In this document: in pieces, positions 50,991-57,219 of the stretch
Numbering within the stretch: position 1 is the first letter of the stretch
How the letters are laid out: each line of letters opens with the position of its first letter
Assembly (NCBI RefSeq): GCF_011044255.1
Contig: NZ_CP049107.1
Coordinates: forward strand, 310,001 to 374,000
Length of the DNA stretch: 64,000 bases
Source: Rhizorhabdus phycosphaerae
Lineage (GTDB): Bacteria; Pseudomonadota; Alphaproteobacteria; Sphingomonadales; Sphingomonadaceae
Direction of reading: 5' to 3'
Notes under the pieces: generated by a model
The model's input: only the letters and a program-made list of their open reading frames with translations
The model's database searches: none
What the model was told of the DNA's origin: nothing
Position numbers and translations under genes: made by a program

Positions 50991-52550
50991 ATGTCCGAAC
51001 CCTATTATATCACCACCGCTATCAGCTATCCCAATGGCCGTCCGCACATAGGCCACGCCTATGAGGCGATCGCCGCCGATGTCATCGCCCGCTTCCAGCG
51101 CGGCATGGGGCGCGACGTGCGCTTCCAGACCGGCACCGACGAACATGGCCTAAAGATGGTGCAGGCAGCCCGCGCCCGCGACATGGAGCCGCGCGCGCTC
51201 GCCGATGAAATGTCGTCCTATTTCAAGGAAATGGACGATGCTCTCAACATTTCTTATGATCGCTTCATCCGGACCAGCGAGGCCGATCATTATGCCGCGA
51301 GCCAGGCGATCTGGCAGGCGATGGAGGCCAATGGCGATCTCTATCTCGACCGCTACGAAGGCTGGTACTCGGTGCGCGACGAGGCCTTTTACGACGAGAA
51401 GGAGCTTGTCGAGGGCGAGGGCGGGCAGAAGCTGTCGCCGCAGGGTACGCCGGTCGAATGGACCGTCGAGGAAAGCTGGTTCTTCCGGCTGTCCAAATAT
51501 CAGGAGCCGCTGCTGGCGCTCTACCGCGACCAGCCCGACTTCATCCGTCCGGAAAGCCGGCGCAACGAGGTGATGAGCTTCGTCAGCGGGGGCTTGAGCG
51601 ATCTGTCGATGTCGCGGACCAGCTTCGACTGGGGCGTGCCGGTGCCGGGCAGCCCTGGCCACGTCATGTATGTGTGGGTCGATGCGCTCACCAACTATCT
51701 GACCGGCGTCGGCTATCCCCATGGCGGCGAGACCTATGACCGCTATTGGCCGGCGAGCCTGCACCTGATCGGCAAGGACATCGTCCGCTTCCACTCGGTC
51801 TACTGGCCCGCCTTCCTGATGTCGGCAAAGGTGCCGCTGCCGAAGCAGGTGTTCGGCCATGGCTTCCTGCTCAACCGGGGCGAGAAGATGTCGAAGTCGG
51901 TCGGTAATGTCGTCGATCCGATGGGCATGGCCGAACGCTATGGCGTCGACCAGCTGCGCTATTTCCTGATGCGTGAGGTCAGCTTCGGATCCGACGGCAG
52001 CTACAGCCATGAGGCGATCGTCAACCGCGCCAATGCCGAGCTGGCGAACAGCTTCGGCAACCTGGCGCAGCGCACGCTGTCGATGATCTTCAAGAATCTC
52101 GACGGCGAATTGCCCGCACTCGACCGCAACGAGGATGATGCCGCGCTGGTTCGTGCGGTCGCCTCGGCCTGTCTCGACGAACTGCCGCGCGCCTTCGAGC
52201 AGCTGTCCTTCTCGGTCGGGATCGAGGCGTGGATGAAGGCGGTGTTCGCCTGCAACCAATATGTCGACGCCCAGGCGCCGTGGACGCTGCGCAAGACCGA
52301 TCCGGAGCGGATGAAGACCGTGCTGGGCAATTTGTTCGCGGTGATCCGCGACCTGGCCATCGCCATATTGCCGGTCATTCCGGCCAGTGCGGGCAAGCTG
52401 CTCGACCAGATGGGCGTGGCCGCCGATGCCCGCGACTTCGCGGCGCTCGAACGGCAGGGCTGGTATGACGAACTGCGCGCCTCGGGCTACCGCGTCGCGC
52501 AGCCGGTGCCGCTCTTCCCGCGCCTCGAACTCGAGACGGCCGAGGGCTGA
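50991..52550 (+). CDS. metG: Methionyl-tRNA synthetase
   Basis: Charges tRNA-Met. 519 residues: the short, zinc-poor MetG2-type form without the C-terminal tRNA-binding domain. HIGH motif in NGRPHIGHAYEAIAAD near residue 14 and KMSKS in GEKMSKSVGNVVDP near 300; the knuckle region lacks the CxxC pairs of the E. coli enzyme. The preceding 66-nt gap shows no riboswitch-like structure. Stop overlaps the TatD-type ATG (TGATG). Confidence 0.97.
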   Translation: MSEPYYITTAISYPNGRPHIGHAYEAIAADVIARFQRGMGRDVRFQTGTDEHGLKMVQAARARDMEPRALADEMSSYFKEMDDALNISYDRFIRTSEADHYAASQAIWQAMEANGDLYLDRYEGWYSVRDEAFYDEKELVEGEGGQKLSPQGTPVEWTVEESWFFRLSKYQEPLLALYRDQPDFIRPESRRNEVMSFVSGGLSDLSMSRTSFDWGVPVPGSPGHVMYVWVDALTNYLTGVGYPHGGETYDRYWPASLHLIGKDIVRFHSVYWPAFLMSAKVPLPKQVFGHGFLLNRGEKMSKSVGNVVDPMGMAERYGVDQLRYFLMREVSFGSDGSYSHEAIVNRANAELANSFGNLAQRTLSMIFKNLDGELPALDRNEDDAALVRAVASACLDELPRAFEQLSFSVGIEAWMKAVFACNQYVDAQAPWTLRKTDPERMKTVLGNLFAVIRDLAIAILPVIPASAGKLLDQMGVAADARDFAALERQGWYDELRASGYRVAQPVPLFPRLELETAEG

Positions 52551-53326
52551 TGTTCGTCGATAGCCATTGCCACCTCAACTATGCGGGCCTCGCCGAGCGC
52601 CAGCAGGAGGTGCTTGCCGGCGCCCGGGCGGCGGGCGTCACGACGATGCTCAACATCTCGACGCGCGCCGCCGAGTGGAACGACGTGCTGGCCGTCGCCG
52701 AGCGCGAACCCGACGTATGGGCGAGCGTGGGTATCCACCCTCACGACGCCGATACGCATGAGGATATCGAAACCGCGCTGCTGGTCGAAAAGGCTCGGCA
52801 CCCGCGCGTTGTCGGCATCGGCGAGACCGGGCTCGATTTCTTCTACGACAAGTCCGACCGCGACCGGCAGCGTGCGAGCTTCCGCCGCCATATCGCAGCC
52901 GCGCGCGAGACCGGACTTCCGCTGATCGTCCACACCCGCGAGGCCGAGGAGGACACGAAGGCGATCATGGCCGAGGAGATGGGGAAGGGGGCCTTCACCG
53001 CCGTCATCCACTGCTTCACTGGCAGCGCCGACCTCGCCCGCGCGATGCTCGATTTGGGTTGCTATATTTCGCTGTCGGGGATCGTGACTTTCAAGAACGC
53101 GGCCGACCTGCGCGCCACCGCGCATCTCGTTCCGCGCGACCGACTGCTAATCGAAACCGACAGCCCGTTCCTGGCGCCGGTGCCGCATCGGGGCAAGCCG
53201 TGCGAGCCGGCCTATGTCGTCGATACCGCGCGGATGCTGTCGACCGAACTCGACTGGCCGATCGAGGAACTGGCGCGAGAGACGTCGGATAACTTCTTCA
53301 GATTGTTTGCAAAAGCAGCGGTATGA
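52550..53326 (+). CDS. TatD family metal-dependent hydrolase (DNase-like)
   Basis: 258 residues, TIM-barrel amidohydrolase. Metal ligands: DSHCHLNY (H-x-H near residue 6), GETGLDFFYD near 95, HTREAEED near 131 (H), VIHCFTGSADLA near 156, and the last Asp in ETDSPFLAP near 204. E. coli TatD relatives act as 3'-5' exonucleases in DNA repair; the precise role of YcfH-type members is open. Sits in the run after metG, its common neighbour. Confidence 0.95.
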   Translation: MFVDSHCHLNYAGLAERQQEVLAGARAAGVTTMLNISTRAAEWNDVLAVAEREPDVWASVGIHPHDADTHEDIETALLVEKARHPRVVGIGETGLDFFYDKSDRDRQRASFRRHIAAARETGLPLIVHTREAEEDTKAIMAEEMGKGAFTAVIHCFTGSADLARAMLDLGCYISLSGIVTFKNAADLRATAHLVPRDRLLIETDSPFLAPVPHRGKPCEPAYVVDTARMLSTELDWPIEELARETSDNFFRLFAKAAV

Positions 53327-54087
53327 AGATCCGCATTCTCGGCTGTGGAACATCCTCGGGCGTTCCCCGGATCGGCAATGACTGGGGCGCCTGCGATCCC
53401 TCCGAACCACGCAACCGCCGCAGCCGGGCATCGATCCTCGTGGAGAGCGCGACCACGCGCATCCTGGTCGACACGACCCCCGACATGCGCCAGCAACTAC
53501 TCGACGCCGATGTCATCGCGATCGATGCGATCCTGTGGACGCATGACCACGCCGATCATTGCCACGGGATCGACGACTGCCGGCAGATCTTCCACGCGCG
53601 CGGCACGCCGGTGCCGGGTTTCGGCTTCCCGGCGACGATCCGTCAGCTGCGCCAGCGCTTCGACTATGTCTTCGCCGGTCGAGACGGCTACCCGCCGACG
53701 GTCGAGGCGGGCGAACTGCTTGCCGACATGACGATCGGCGACATCCGCGTCCGCTCGGTGGCCCAGCCGCATGGCAACATCTACAGTGCCGGCCTGCGCT
53801 TCGATCATGATGGCCGATCTATTGGATATTCGACCGATTTCCATGATATTACGAGCGATATGCGAGACTTGTTCTCCGGTGTCGACCTGTGGATCGTCGA
53901 TGCGCTGCGGGTTCGTCCACATCCGACCCACGCGCATCTAGACCTCACGCTCGCCGCGATCCGCGACTGCTCTCCGAAGCGCGCCGTGCTGACGCACATG
54001 GACCAGTCGATGGATTATGCCAGCCTGGCGGCGAAGCTGCCGGACGGCGTCGAGCCGGGCCATGACGGAATGGAGGTGCTGCTGTGA
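53323..54087 (+). CDS. MBL-fold metallohydrolase (PhnP-like)
   Basis: 254 residues. The binuclear zinc motif HxHxDH is in LWTHDHADHCHGIDDC near residue 73; other landmarks are LGCGTSSGVPRIGNDWGACD at the N-terminus (the PhnP/tRNase Z-like opening) and STDFHDITSDM near 167. PhnP cleaves cyclic phosphodiesters, but without phn genes nearby the substrate cannot be told. ATG overlaps the TatD-type stop (ATGA), and its own stop overlaps the next GTG. Confidence 0.9.
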   Translation: MKIRILGCGTSSGVPRIGNDWGACDPSEPRNRRSRASILVESATTRILVDTTPDMRQQLLDADVIAIDAILWTHDHADHCHGIDDCRQIFHARGTPVPGFGFPATIRQLRQRFDYVFAGRDGYPPTVEAGELLADMTIGDIRVRSVAQPHGNIYSAGLRFDHDGRSIGYSTDFHDITSDMRDLFSGVDLWIVDALRVRPHPTHAHLDLTLAAIRDCSPKRAVLTHMDQSMDYASLAAKLPDGVEPGHDGMEVLL

Positions 54088-54257
54088 ACGGAGACATGAT
54101 CGTCGGCCTCGTCGCCATCGCCGCGATGCTGATCCTCGTCGTTCCTCGCGTTCTACGGAGCGGTGTCGCCAAAGGCCGTCTCGTGCAACTCGCTCTGTTG
54201 TGGGCGGCGATCTTCCTGATCGCAACCGTCGTAGCAGTGGTCGCGAGCCGGTTCTGA
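54084..54257 (+). CDS. Small hypothetical membrane protein (57 residues)
   Basis: GTG start at 54084 overlaps the MBL-fold stop (GTGA), with GGAGG seven bases upstream. Encodes 57 residues: a hydrophobic segment MIVGLVAIAAMLILVV, a short basic loop (PRVLRSGVAKGR), and a second hydrophobic segment LALLWAAIFLIATVVAVVA, so probably a two-helix hairpin with the loop in the cytoplasm. An internal ATG at 54096 would sit only two bases after a GGAG and is unlikely. No known family recognised. It closes the run from 46106; an AT-rich stretch with a dif-like site follows. Confidence 0.75.
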   Translation: MNGDMIVGLVAIAAMLILVVPRVLRSGVAKGRLVQLALLWAAIFLIATVVAVVASRF

Positions 54258-54276
54258 GCGCTTGAACCGCGGCATA

Positions 54277-54304
54277 ATTTAACATAATATATATTATCGG
54301 ATAA
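54277..54304 (-). other. Candidate dif site (XerC/XerD chromosome dimer resolution site)
   Basis: 28 bp with the XerCD layout on the minus strand: XerC-arm-like TTATCCGATAA, 6-bp centre TATATA, XerD arm TTATGTTAAAT. The XerD arm is identical to E. coli dif (TTATGTTAAAT), and 20 of the first 21 bases from that side match, only one centre base differing; the XerC arm matches in its inner four bases. Lies in the intergenic gap between convergent genes (54257 end, 54374 end). KOPS-like octamer orientation flips here (see findings). Confidence 0.88.
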
Positions 54305-54373
54305 TTGGCCATGTCCGACTTACGATTTGTCGCGCGGTGGCTCCCTCCAATGCCCACCCCAGGAATCCACGGA

Positions 54374-54778
54374 TCAAAACAGGATGTCCGCTGCAGCCGG
54401 TCCGAGCGTCAGTGCTCCGATAATCGCTGCGCCGATCGACGCGAGCAATACGCCGCCCGCCGCTAGGTCCTTCACACGTCCGATTGCTGGATCGAACTCT
54501 GTGGTGACCCGGTCGCAGAGTTCTTCGATCGCGGTGTTGAAGGCTTCTGCGATCCACACCAGTGTAATGGCCAGCGCGATCCATCGCCAATCATCGACTG
54601 ATATCTTGAGCAGGAACCCCGTCGCGATGACAGCCACGGATGCGGCAAGGTGCAACTGGGCATTGTGTTCTGTCCGCACCAGAGAACGCAGCCCGTGGAC
54701 AGCGTAGATGAAGCTTTTCATTCGACCGCATATAGAGAAACGCGTGGCCAGCTTCGGCCCGTCAGGATCGCTTGCCAT
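54374..54778 (-). CDS. dgkA: Diacylglycerol kinase (DgkA/undecaprenol kinase family)
   Basis: Integral membrane kinase that phosphorylates diacylglycerol or undecaprenol. Up to 134 residues with three hydrophobic segments. Signature EAFNTAIEELCDRV contains the catalytic Glu region; EHNAQLHLAASVAVIATGFL is the N-terminal core. Start is uncertain: ATG 54778 is the longest; ATG 54721 (KSFIYAVHGLRS) matches the family's N-terminus better. Stands next to the dif site, convergent with the plus-strand run, 69 nt past it. The reading frame is intact. Confidence 0.9.
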   Translation of the reverse strand: MASDPDGPKLATRFSICGRMKSFIYAVHGLRSLVRTEHNAQLHLAASVAVIATGFLLKISVDDWRWIALAITLVWIAEAFNTAIEELCDRVTTEFDPAIGRVKDLAAGGVLLASIGAAIIGALTLGPAAADILF

Positions 54779-54861: not shown

Positions 54862-55128
54862 TCACTGGATCGTGATGATCCCGTCCACCGCGCGCCATTC
54901 GGTCGGGCCGATCAGGTGGCGGTGGGCCACGCGGATCGAGTGGAGCACGGCCTCGATCTCGCGGCGCCAATGGTCGAGAAAGCGGTTGAGCTCCGGGAAG
55001 TCCGGCGCGACGTCATAATGCTGCCAGAGGAACAGCTGCAGCAGCGATGGATGGTCGGGCATATAATAATGGATTTCGACCGTCGCGAGGCCATAGCCCC
55101 GCAGCTGTTTGAGGAGGTCGTCGCTCAT
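54862..55128 (-). CDS. usg: Usg family protein
   Basis: 88 residues from ATG 55128 (GAGGAGG about six bases upstream). Contains the family stretches QLRGYGLATVEIHYYMPDHP and DFPELNRFLDHWRREIEAVL, and ends with HRHLIGPTEWRAVDGIITIQ. Usg is an alphaproteobacterial conserved protein named for lying beside trp genes; no trp genes are here and no function is established. Lies between dgkA and mutL, the same strand, with its own AT-rich upstream region. Confidence 0.88.
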   Translation of the reverse strand: MSDDLLKQLRGYGLATVEIHYYMPDHPSLLQLFLWQHYDVAPDFPELNRFLDHWRREIEAVLHSIRVAHRHLIGPTEWRAVDGIITIQ

Positions 55129-55181
55129 GCAGGCCTCCTCCGGGGCGCGCCTGAACATATCGCCGGGGCTGAGAGATTTAC

Positions 55182-55210
55182 GATATATATCATGGATATA
55201 GGCGGTCGAA
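55182..55210 (-). promoter_or_regulatory. Candidate promoter of usg
   Basis: Minus strand TTCGAC (55210-55205), 17-nt spacer, TATATC (55187-55182), about 53 nt before the usg start. It overlaps the palindrome GATATATATC (55182-55191). Confidence 0.4.
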
Positions 55211-55310: not shown

Positions 55311-57107
55311 TCACTTGCGGCCGAACAGCTTTTCGATCTCGTCATGGCCGAGCTTGATCCAGGTCGGGCGGCCATGGTTGCATTGGCCCGAATGCGGCGT
55401 GACCTCCATCTCGCGGAGCAGCGCGTTCATCTCGGCGACCGACAATGTGCGGCCGGCACGGACCGATCCGTGGCAGGCCATGGTCGCGGCGACATGGTCG
55501 AGACGCTCCTTGAGCGACAGCGCTTCGTCATAGGCCGCCAGTTCGTCGGCGAGATCGACAATGAGCCCCTGGACGTCGCCCTGCCCCAGCAAGGCCGGGG
55601 TCGCCCGCACGAGCATTGCTCGGGGGCCGAAGCGCTCGAGGTCGAGGCCCATTTCGGAGAGTTCGCCGAGCCGCGCCTCAAGCCGGTCGCAAGCGGGCTC
55701 GTCCAGCTCGACCACCTCGGGCAGCAGCAGATTCTGCCGGGAAACGCCGCCTTCCGCCATGGCACGGCGCATCCGCTCGAGGACCAGGCGTTCATGCGCG
55801 GCGTGCTGGTCGACGATCACCAGTCCGTCGCTCGCCTCGGCGACGATATAGGTGGCGGCGATCTGCCCCCGTGCGACGCCCATCGGAAAGCTCACCGGCT
55901 CGGGCACTGCGCCCGAAGAGACCTCGGCACGGGCCATCGGGGCCGGGGTATAATCGGCGACCCGGTCCCACACGCTGCCCTGAACCGGGGCGCCCGCGCC
56001 CGCCGGGATCGGGAAAGCGGGGCCTCCCCCCGACATCGCCGCCGATGGCCAGGGCGCAGACGATCCCCCACCCCCGACCTGCCAGCTGCCGAGACTGGCG
56101 ACCGACGTCCGCTGCACGCTGCGATGGCCGGCCTCGTCCAGCGCGGCGCGCAGTCCGCCGACGATCATGCCCCGGATCAGTCCCGGATCGCGAAAGCGGA
56201 CCTCGGTCTTGGCGGGGTGGACGTTCACGTCGACGAGATCGCCGGGAAGGTCGAGGAACAGCGCCATCACCGGATGCCGGTCACGCGCCAGCATGTCCTG
56301 ATAGGCCGCGCGCACCGCGCCGATCAGCAGCCGGTCCTTAACGGGGCGGCCGTTGACGAACAGATATTGATGGTCGGCGACCCCGCGATTGAAAGTCGGC
56401 AGGCCCGCCACGCCGGTCAGCGATACGGCTTCCCGACGGAAATCGACCGCGACGCTGTTGTCGGCGAGGTCCTTGTCGGTCAGCGCGGCGACCCGGCTCA
56501 CCCGGTCTTCATCGGGCGAGACGAGGATCGCGCGGCGCCCGTCATGTTCCAGGGTGAAGCCGATATCGGGGCGGGCCATCGCCAGCCTGCGGACGACGTC
56601 GAGGCAGGCGGCATATTCCGACCGGGCCGAGCGCAGAAATTTGCGCCGTGCCGGGACCTTGGAGAAAAGCTGTGCGACGCGGATGCGCGTCCCCGGCGGC
56701 AAAGCGGCGGGCCCCTCTCCCGCCAGTTCGCCATGGTCGATCCGGCGATACCAGCCGTCGGCGCCGCGGACGCGGCTCTCGATCGTCAGATCGGCGACGC
56801 TCGCGATCGACGGCAGCGCCTCGCCGCGGAAACCCAGCGTCGTCACCGCCTCGATCGCGTCGTCCGGCAATTTCGACGTCGCGTGCCGCTCCAGCGCCAG
56901 CGCTATCTGCGCCGCTTCCATGCCGCAGCCATCGTCGATCACCTCGACCGCGGAAAGCCCGCCTTCCGAGAGATTTACTGCGATGCGGCGAGCGCCGGCA
57001 TCGATCGAATTCTCGACCAGTTCCTTGAGCGCGCTGGCCGGTCTTTCGACCACTTCACCGGCGGCTATGCGATTCACAAGATGTTCGGGCAGGCGGCGTA
57101 TTGACAT
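55311..57107 (-). CDS. mutL: DNA mismatch repair protein MutL (endonuclease type)
   Basis: Matchmaker of mismatch repair, 598 residues from ATG 57107 (SIRRLPEHLVNRIAAGEVVE). ATPase motifs: ELVENSIDAGA near 30, DDGCGM near 57 and GFRGEALPSI near 92. The C-terminal domain (about 400-598) contains VDQHAAHERLVLERM, which fits DQHA(x)2E(x)4E, the metal site of the nicking endonuclease found in bacteria without MutH. Pro/Gly-rich linker around residues 340-400. 128 nt from the divergent mreB gene; usg begins 183 nt downstream. Confidence 0.97.
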   Translation of the reverse strand: MSIRRLPEHLVNRIAAGEVVERPASALKELVENSIDAGARRIAVNLSEGGLSAVEVIDDGCGMEAAQIALALERHATSKLPDDAIEAVTTLGFRGEALPSIASVADLTIESRVRGADGWYRRIDHGELAGEGPAALPPGTRIRVAQLFSKVPARRKFLRSARSEYAACLDVVRRLAMARPDIGFTLEHDGRRAILVSPDEDRVSRVAALTDKDLADNSVAVDFRREAVSLTGVAGLPTFNRGVADHQYLFVNGRPVKDRLLIGAVRAAYQDMLARDRHPVMALFLDLPGDLVDVNVHPAKTEVRFRDPGLIRGMIVGGLRAALDEAGHRSVQRTSVASLGSWQVGGGGSSAPWPSAAMSGGGPAFPIPAGAGAPVQGSVWDRVADYTPAPMARAEVSSGAVPEPVSFPMGVARGQIAATYIVAEASDGLVIVDQHAAHERLVLERMRRAMAEGGVSRQNLLLPEVVELDEPACDRLEARLGELSEMGLDLERFGPRAMLVRATPALLGQGDVQGLIVDLADELAAYDEALSLKERLDHVAATMACHGSVRAGRTLSVAEMNALLREMEVTPHSGQCNHGRPTWIKLGHDEIEKLFGRK

Positions 57108-57219
57108 GGTCCCCGTCCTAGCCCAAGCGGCAGCGTTCCGCATCCCTTGATAGACGCCGGTTTTCCTTCGCCTGTCGGGTGATGCTCGCGAGATCTTATC
57201 CGGCCAAGGGCGGGCCTAG

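Follow-up and report, generated by a model that had tools for sequence, protein, structure and literature searches.

The window analysed here, a 64-kb stretch (C1:310001–374000) of the single-contig genome of Rhizorhabdus phycosphaerae, contains a short intergenic gap (54258–54373) that harbors a 28-bp element at positions 54277–54304. To its left, plus-strand reading frames run toward the gap, comprising a tatD-type nuclease gene (52550–53326; TIGR00010), which is the second gene on this side, an MBL-fold hydrolase gene (53323–54087), and a 57-aa ORF (54084–54257) that has tblastn matches in several members of the genus and no Pfam match. The right-hand neighbor, dgkA (54374–54778; Pfam DAGK_prokar), lies on the minus strand, encodes a prokaryotic diacylglycerol kinase, and is thus convergent with the left genes; it is followed on the same strand by a Usg-like gene (54862–55158), assigned by family search, and a mutL-like ORF (55311–57143). 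The names MazG, TatD, MBL, DAGK, and Usg were taken from family searches, while holB, metG, hflX, lysR, and mutL are names that we presume from the sequences. An AT-rich stretch, ATTTACGATATATATCATGGATATA, perhaps an operator, is located upstream of the Usg-like gene at 55176–55200.

The 28-bp element reads on the minus strand as an 11-bp predicted XerC-binding arm, TTATCCGATAA (54294–54304), a 6-bp center, TATATA (54288–54293), and an 11-bp predicted XerD-binding arm, TTATGTTAAAT (54277–54287), a reading already given in the initial annotation and in agreement with the sequence. A chromosome carries one dif site, at which dimers are resolved by FtsK and XerCD. Here, searching with up to three mismatches revealed a single match of the 28-mer in the window and a single match in the whole 4,327,794-bp genome, while none was found in 100 dinucleotide shuffles of the window and the reversed-pattern control had no match in the whole genome. 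The XerD arm likewise has one exact copy in the entire genome, so that the single copy foreseen by the initial annotation and its claim of a match far beyond chance both held, and the notion of a better dif elsewhere in the genome was rejected. With near certainty, 54277–54304 is the dif site of the R. phycosphaerae chromosome; it is an ordinary site of a known kind, and the first reading of it was well made.

Comparison with the E. coli K12 dif, given as GGTGCGCATAATGTATATTATGTTAAAT in Table 1 of PMC2731167, revealed the same 28-bp organization (11+6+11) and, as had been noted from the sequence, an identical XerD arm. The centers are TGTATA in E. coli and TATATA in R. phycosphaerae, and this is the one difference across the 21 bases formed by ATAA, the center, and the XerD arm, again as first reported. 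One base further out, the XerC arm differs as well (C in E. coli, G here), and the complete XerC arms read GGTGCGCATAA and TTATCCGATAA, respectively. Table 1 of the same source holds a single sphingomonad entry, the Novosphingobium aromaticivorans dif AGGATTGATAATAATCATTATGTAAATA, which differs both from the site described here and from the Novosphingobium-titled loci that we found, although these were picked up via the conserved core and other Novosphingobium loci could differ. No match to AGGATTGATAATAATCATTATGTAAATA with up to one mismatch was found in 397 genomes of the family, which does not show the published sequence to be wrong; the entry may deserve a re-check.

Position of the site at the replication terminus

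GC skew and the distribution of KOPS were followed over 40 stretches of 20 kb together with the window, 864 kb in all or 20% of the genome, and for the skew the window was split at dif to yield 42 stretches. Within this sample, all 20 stretches of the left arm had a positive skew and 20 of the 22 on the right arm a negative one, the value changing from +0.016 in the stretch that ends at dif to −0.012 in the stretch that starts there. The two right-arm stretches with positive skew, at 1,081,946 and 2,163,891 (1.08 and 2.16 Mb), are perhaps islands or local inversions. Locally, the cumulative skew reached its maximum at 359,656, 4.6 kb to the left of dif, and dif itself falls inside 359,054–364,352, the stretch within 50 of that maximum. 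The minimum was found at 2,634,665 (within 2,630,000–2,664,999), and a genome search with up to two mismatches to what we take to be the parS consensus identified parS-like sites only at 2,653,991 and 2,655,496. The distance from dif to this region corresponds to 0.525–0.529 of the circle, and the skew switch opposite the origin that the initial annotation proposed to look for is thus present at the sampled resolution, with a nearly opposite minimum. The contig begins at dnaA, which is located at position 421; skew and parS-like sites indicate an origin near 2.64 Mb and not at dnaA, and taking dnaA as the origin would therefore misplace the terminus.

The KOPS motif GGGNAGGG displayed a matching polarity. 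In the 104 kb around dif (the window plus 40 kb), it occurs 18 times in the forward and twice in the reverse orientation on the left, and 0 times forward and 10 times reverse on the right, the nearest copies being those at window positions 52982 (+) and 54822 (−). Over the sampled 864 kb, the corresponding counts were 74:22 on one arm and 11:86 on the other. Among octamers counted at least 40 times in the 20% sample, GGGCAGGG was the most polarized, with 91 copies pointing toward dif and 10 away; because dif and the skew minimum served to define the arms, the sign of this bias is in part built in, whereas the identity of the top octamer is not. Skew and KOPS polarity, the latter a check beyond those suggested in the initial annotation, thus both flip at dif, which supports its assignment to the replication terminus and places the chromosome's terminus to within a few bases. 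As in E. coli, a single dif copy lies opposite the origin region between converging GGGNAGGG motifs. Predicted alphaproteobacterial dif sites (PMC2731167; Kono et al. 2011, PMC3025954) provide a further yardstick: of the four criteria named by Carnoy and Roten 2009 (PMC2731167), namely homology, terminus location, single copy, and presence in other strains of the same species, the first three were found for the R. phycosphaerae site.

Xer recombinases and FtsK

The genome holds four Phage_integrase matches, two of them of Xer length. The XerD-like protein (C1:10303–11226; 307 aa) had TIGR02225 (XerD) as its best equivalog, with 247.8 bits, and scored 203.7 bits against the XerC model, while the XerC-like protein (C1:198329–199255; 308 aa) had TIGR02224 (XerC) as its best equivalog, with 264.6 bits, and scored 203.9 bits against the XerD model; as both fall below the curated NCBIfam equivalog cut-offs (329.6 and 335.15 bits), each was assigned by the better of its two scores. 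Together with one FtsK carrying a gamma domain (89.1 bits), the genome thus encodes XerC-like, XerD-like, and FtsK-gamma proteins. By analogy with the E. coli and Vibrio systems, from which binding, cleavage, activation by FtsK, and the need for the site are carried over, a chromosome dimer would arise from an odd number of crossovers, and KOPS pointing at dif from both arms would guide FtsK, the septal translocase, in bringing the two dif copies together. FtsK would then activate XerD and XerC, which are expected to cleave on either edge of the central TATATA and to add one crossover, converting the dimer into two monomers.

Occurrence in relatives

With up to three mismatches, the 28-mer was found in 11 of 60 genomes, R. 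phycosphaerae included, with one copy each; variation in the outer XerC arm makes this search a strict one. At the same tolerance, the 22-mer core was present in 13 of 14 genomes of the genus, which include Rhizorhabdus dicambivorans (G004) and Sphingomonas montanisoli, the one miss being an 82% complete genome, and the control had no match in these 14 genomes. Across the order, the core was matched in 89 of 147 genomes and missing in 58, with only 4 of 29 positive in one family (f5), and its reversed control gave matches in 6 of these 147 genomes. When public genomes were scanned for exact copies of the core, at least 120 stretches (L023–L142) were returned, and 98 of the 120 listed were taken as Sphingomonadales by their names. 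The inner XerC-arm motif GATAA is constant across the genus sites found and usual in the family, while other families of the order mostly carry CATAA. Within the genus, the outer six bases are variable, and among the matches listed the exact 28-mer recurs in 12 further loci, 11 of them titled Sphingopyxis and one 'SPHING1'; contrary to the earlier, tentative suggestion, the XerC arm is therefore not a form of the group's own. The comparison with orthologous sphingomonad sites, also suggested at the outset, found dif in relatives beside the same gene block, with the left genes shared and the right side differing outside the genus.

The core was also found in ten viral contigs with GC contents of 0.33–0.41. 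In two IMG/VR contigs (L013 and L018; GC 0.34–0.35), it precedes, by about 410 and 120 bp, a gene that we take to resemble a phage terminase small subunit, and some of their frames presumably resemble tailed-phage genes. Their low GC content does not fit sphingomonad hosts.

These data bear on two other explanations of the element. A chance AT-rich palindrome in high-GC DNA would account for a core composed nearly entirely of A and T, for exact 22-mers in some unrelated low-GC contigs, and for the few order genomes matched by the reversed control, but it leaves unexplained the empty shuffles, the one genomic copy, found where it was predicted and unmatched by the control, and the recurrence of the core, but not of its control, throughout nearly the whole genus; position and recurrence render it vanishingly improbable, and it was rejected. 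The element could instead be the attachment site or scar of an Xer-using mobile element or plasmid of the pdif/IMEX type, given that genus relatives and sphingomonad plasmids do bear extra dif-like sites and that, in the drafts G002 and G008, contigs are interrupted at Xer sites whose flanks are shared. The R. phycosphaerae genome, however, contains one site only, no pair of Xer sites flanks an insert, the left gene block is the usual dif neighbor in most loci listed, and the site coincides with the switch in skew and KOPS. A mobile-element scar is thus very improbable and was rejected for this genome on account of the single copy and the usual neighborhood. None of the findings that the initial annotation named as speaking against a dif site (several copies, a location far from the skew switch, or an element flanked by copies) was encountered here, and the ordinary chromosomal dif site remains the preferred reading. 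The points that speak against it are the Xer scores below the equivalog cut-offs, the 4.6-kb offset of the local skew maximum, the two right-arm stretches with positive skew, the 20% sampling behind the skew and KOPS maps, and the 58 of 147 order genomes that lack the core.

Gene order around dif and linkage to mazG

Gene order was compared by tblastn, using the window proteins and a mazG query, across 131 loci (11 from the 28-mer search and the 120 listed from the exact scan). Among these, 102 carry the MBL-fold gene on the XerD side, 90 carry mazG on the XerC side and the same strand, and 80 have a convergent hflX-like gene there. For the 98 titled Sphingomonadales loci listed, mazG was found within ~200 bp in 78, further away in 4, and was unseen in 16; at least one locus without mazG has almost no XerC-side sequence, and a few contigs end there. 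The initial annotation described a gap between convergent genes as the expected setting. The gap is indeed convergent here, but this is probably a secondary rather than the older setting of dif, since a mazG start faces the XerC side in most Sphingomonadales loci examined. Of 30 loci from other families of the order, with flanks of up to 1.5 kb and some perhaps chance matches, 2 had mazG on the XerC side, 1 had it on the opposite side, and 2 showed MBL. Both mazG and MBL, with wider gaps, are present in one family f2 genome (L221). The 22-mer core combined with the order MBL-dif-mazG provides a simple rule for locating dif in many sphingomonads. Our literature search, which did not cover subscription papers, found no paper linking mazG with a dif site and none linking Sphingobium with a dif site, and a broader search returned no sphingomonad in titles among the matches listed. 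The gene-order observations, together with those on plasmid centers described below, reach past the first reading of the site.

The proximity of mazG raises a further explanation, in which dif doubles as a regulatory element whose occupancy by XerCD could gate mazG, with the coupling lost in the genus Rhizorhabdus by rearrangement. Besides the 78 of 98 titled loci with mazG close by on the XerC side and in the same direction, the distance of the gene start is suggestive: in the 84 of 86 near-mazG loci among the matches listed in which it could be measured, the first in-frame ATG, a predicted start, lies 0–95 nt from the XerC arm and within 10 nt in 40, a gap so short that the mazG promoter would have to lie in or beyond dif. 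The spread of these gaps from 0 to 95 nt argues against such a role, however, as do the 20 of 98 titled loci without mazG within 200 bp (a few of them at contig ends) and the Rhizorhabdus genus itself, in which mazG is not found at dif. No strong conserved motif was detected outside the 28-mer in 84 of 86 mazG-linked loci (two were too short); the only features to stand out were a weak AT preference on the XerD side, the outer part of the XerC arm, and the region of the ATG, while the core is invariant in this set because it served as the search pattern. A ribosome-site-like 4-mer preceded only 2 of 40 close starts and 5 of 44 others, and since it is rare before the other starts too, its absence before close mazG starts is not special. 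As inertia of gene order accounts for the linkage equally well, a regulatory role of dif, with its loss in the genus, appears quite improbable. The stronger form, that the Sphingomonadales dif works two ways, as site of dimer resolution and as part of the start region of mazG, with XerC/XerD occupancy at the terminus setting mazG expression, seems to us distinctly improbable. If it were true, nucleotide-pool or stress control would be tied to the end of the cell cycle via mazG, and the genus Rhizorhabdus would represent a natural knock-out of this coupling, created by an inversion ending at dif.

A putative inversion ending at dif

In R. phycosphaerae, mazG (minus strand) and an hflX-like gene (plus strand) are located away from dif at C1:234.9–237.0 kb in reversed orientation, with mazG directly following a LysR-like frame. 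Flipping the ~127-kb segment from the mazG start to dif restores the usual order. The simplest account of the missing mazG would therefore be a single ~127-kb inversion ending at the XerC edge of dif (window 54305). Although such an inversion would have moved the segment to the other arm, its genes and KOPS would still point at dif, and the rearrangement may have been tolerated since these directions were kept. No remnant of dif was found upstream of the R. phycosphaerae mazG, the best 28-base window in the 17 kb searched having 13 mismatches. A mutL-like gene occupies the XerC side of dif in several other members of the genus as well (G004, G006, G008, G010, G011, and G012) and was not seen within 1.5 kb of dif in four (G001, G003, G009, and G013). 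Next to the site, at 54311–54319, ATGTCCGAC is followed by a 51-aa frame, and one idea is that ATGTCCGAC is a relic of the mazG start; the flank in G010 resembles that at ATGTCCGAC, but there mutL, not mazG, adjoins.

Xer sites on plasmids and other replicons

Of 14 genus genomes, 6 contain multiple dif-like sites located on separate contigs, and the arm pattern counts two sites in three further ones (G009, G010, and G011), while R. phycosphaerae has no second Xer site in its genome. The extra sites fall into two classes, namely alignments of the own locus with changed centers and plasmid-like sites. To the former belong G004:C1 and G002:C115, which align with the dif locus of the window and carry the centers TAAGAA and TATTCA. 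For the latter, we examined eight named plasmids, chosen among the 12 listed out of 235 records, that range from 124 to 521 kb, seven of them typed as conjugative and one as mobilizable. All eight share a backbone with a ParA-like ATPase, ParB, and MobC, keep the arms AAGACTGATAA and TTATGTTAAAT, and have nearly identical flanks; their centers are TAAGGA (2), TCAATC (2), TATTTC, TATATC, TAATGA, and TATATA. Sites on plasmids of this backbone (L244, L245, and L258–L265) derive from Rhizorhabdus, Sphingobium, Tardibacter, and Sphingomonas.

A survey of the family found a match in 220 of 397 genomes searched, and 150 sites from 132 genomes, all outside the genus Rhizorhabdus, were listed. TATATA, the center of the R. 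phycosphaerae site, is the commonest among them (95 of 150). Among the sites listed, pairs on different contigs of the same genome shared their center in 1 of 19 cases (15 multi-site genomes); for pairs drawn from two genomes, the figure was 4542 of 11153. These pairs depend on one another, and TATATA is generally avoided by extra sites, so the counts fit both avoidance of the own chromosome's center and a difference between site classes. A further pair with equal centers on a single contig (G434:C2) was left out of the count. In R. dicambivorans (G004; L245, L246, and L247), plasmid C2 carries TATATA, while the chromosome and contig C3 carry TAAGAA, as if the centers had been swapped between replicons, and the equal centers of chromosome and C3 speak against a strict rule.

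According to Val et al. 2008 (PMC2533119), bacteria with multiple chromosomes keep the dif arms and differ in the center, which was proposed to prevent fusion. The multi-site sphingomonad genomes are mostly alike in this respect to dif1 and dif2 of V. cholerae, with constant arms and differing centers; unlike these, the eight extra sites examined sit on plasmids. Fournes et al. 2025 (PMC11724359) describe an active XerCD site on all enterobacterial replicons larger than 250 kb, whereas seven of the eight sphingomonad plasmids are smaller than that. With their near-constant arms and variable centers, the sphingomonad plasmid sites extend the multi-chromosome rule, and they lend themselves naturally to testing whether the center keeps replicons from fusing. 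In the drafts G008 (L250, L251, and L252) and G002 (L253 and L254), contigs end at an Xer site and share a flank of 120–138 bp, hinting at Xer-mediated fusion or exchange between plasmid and chromosome at dif.
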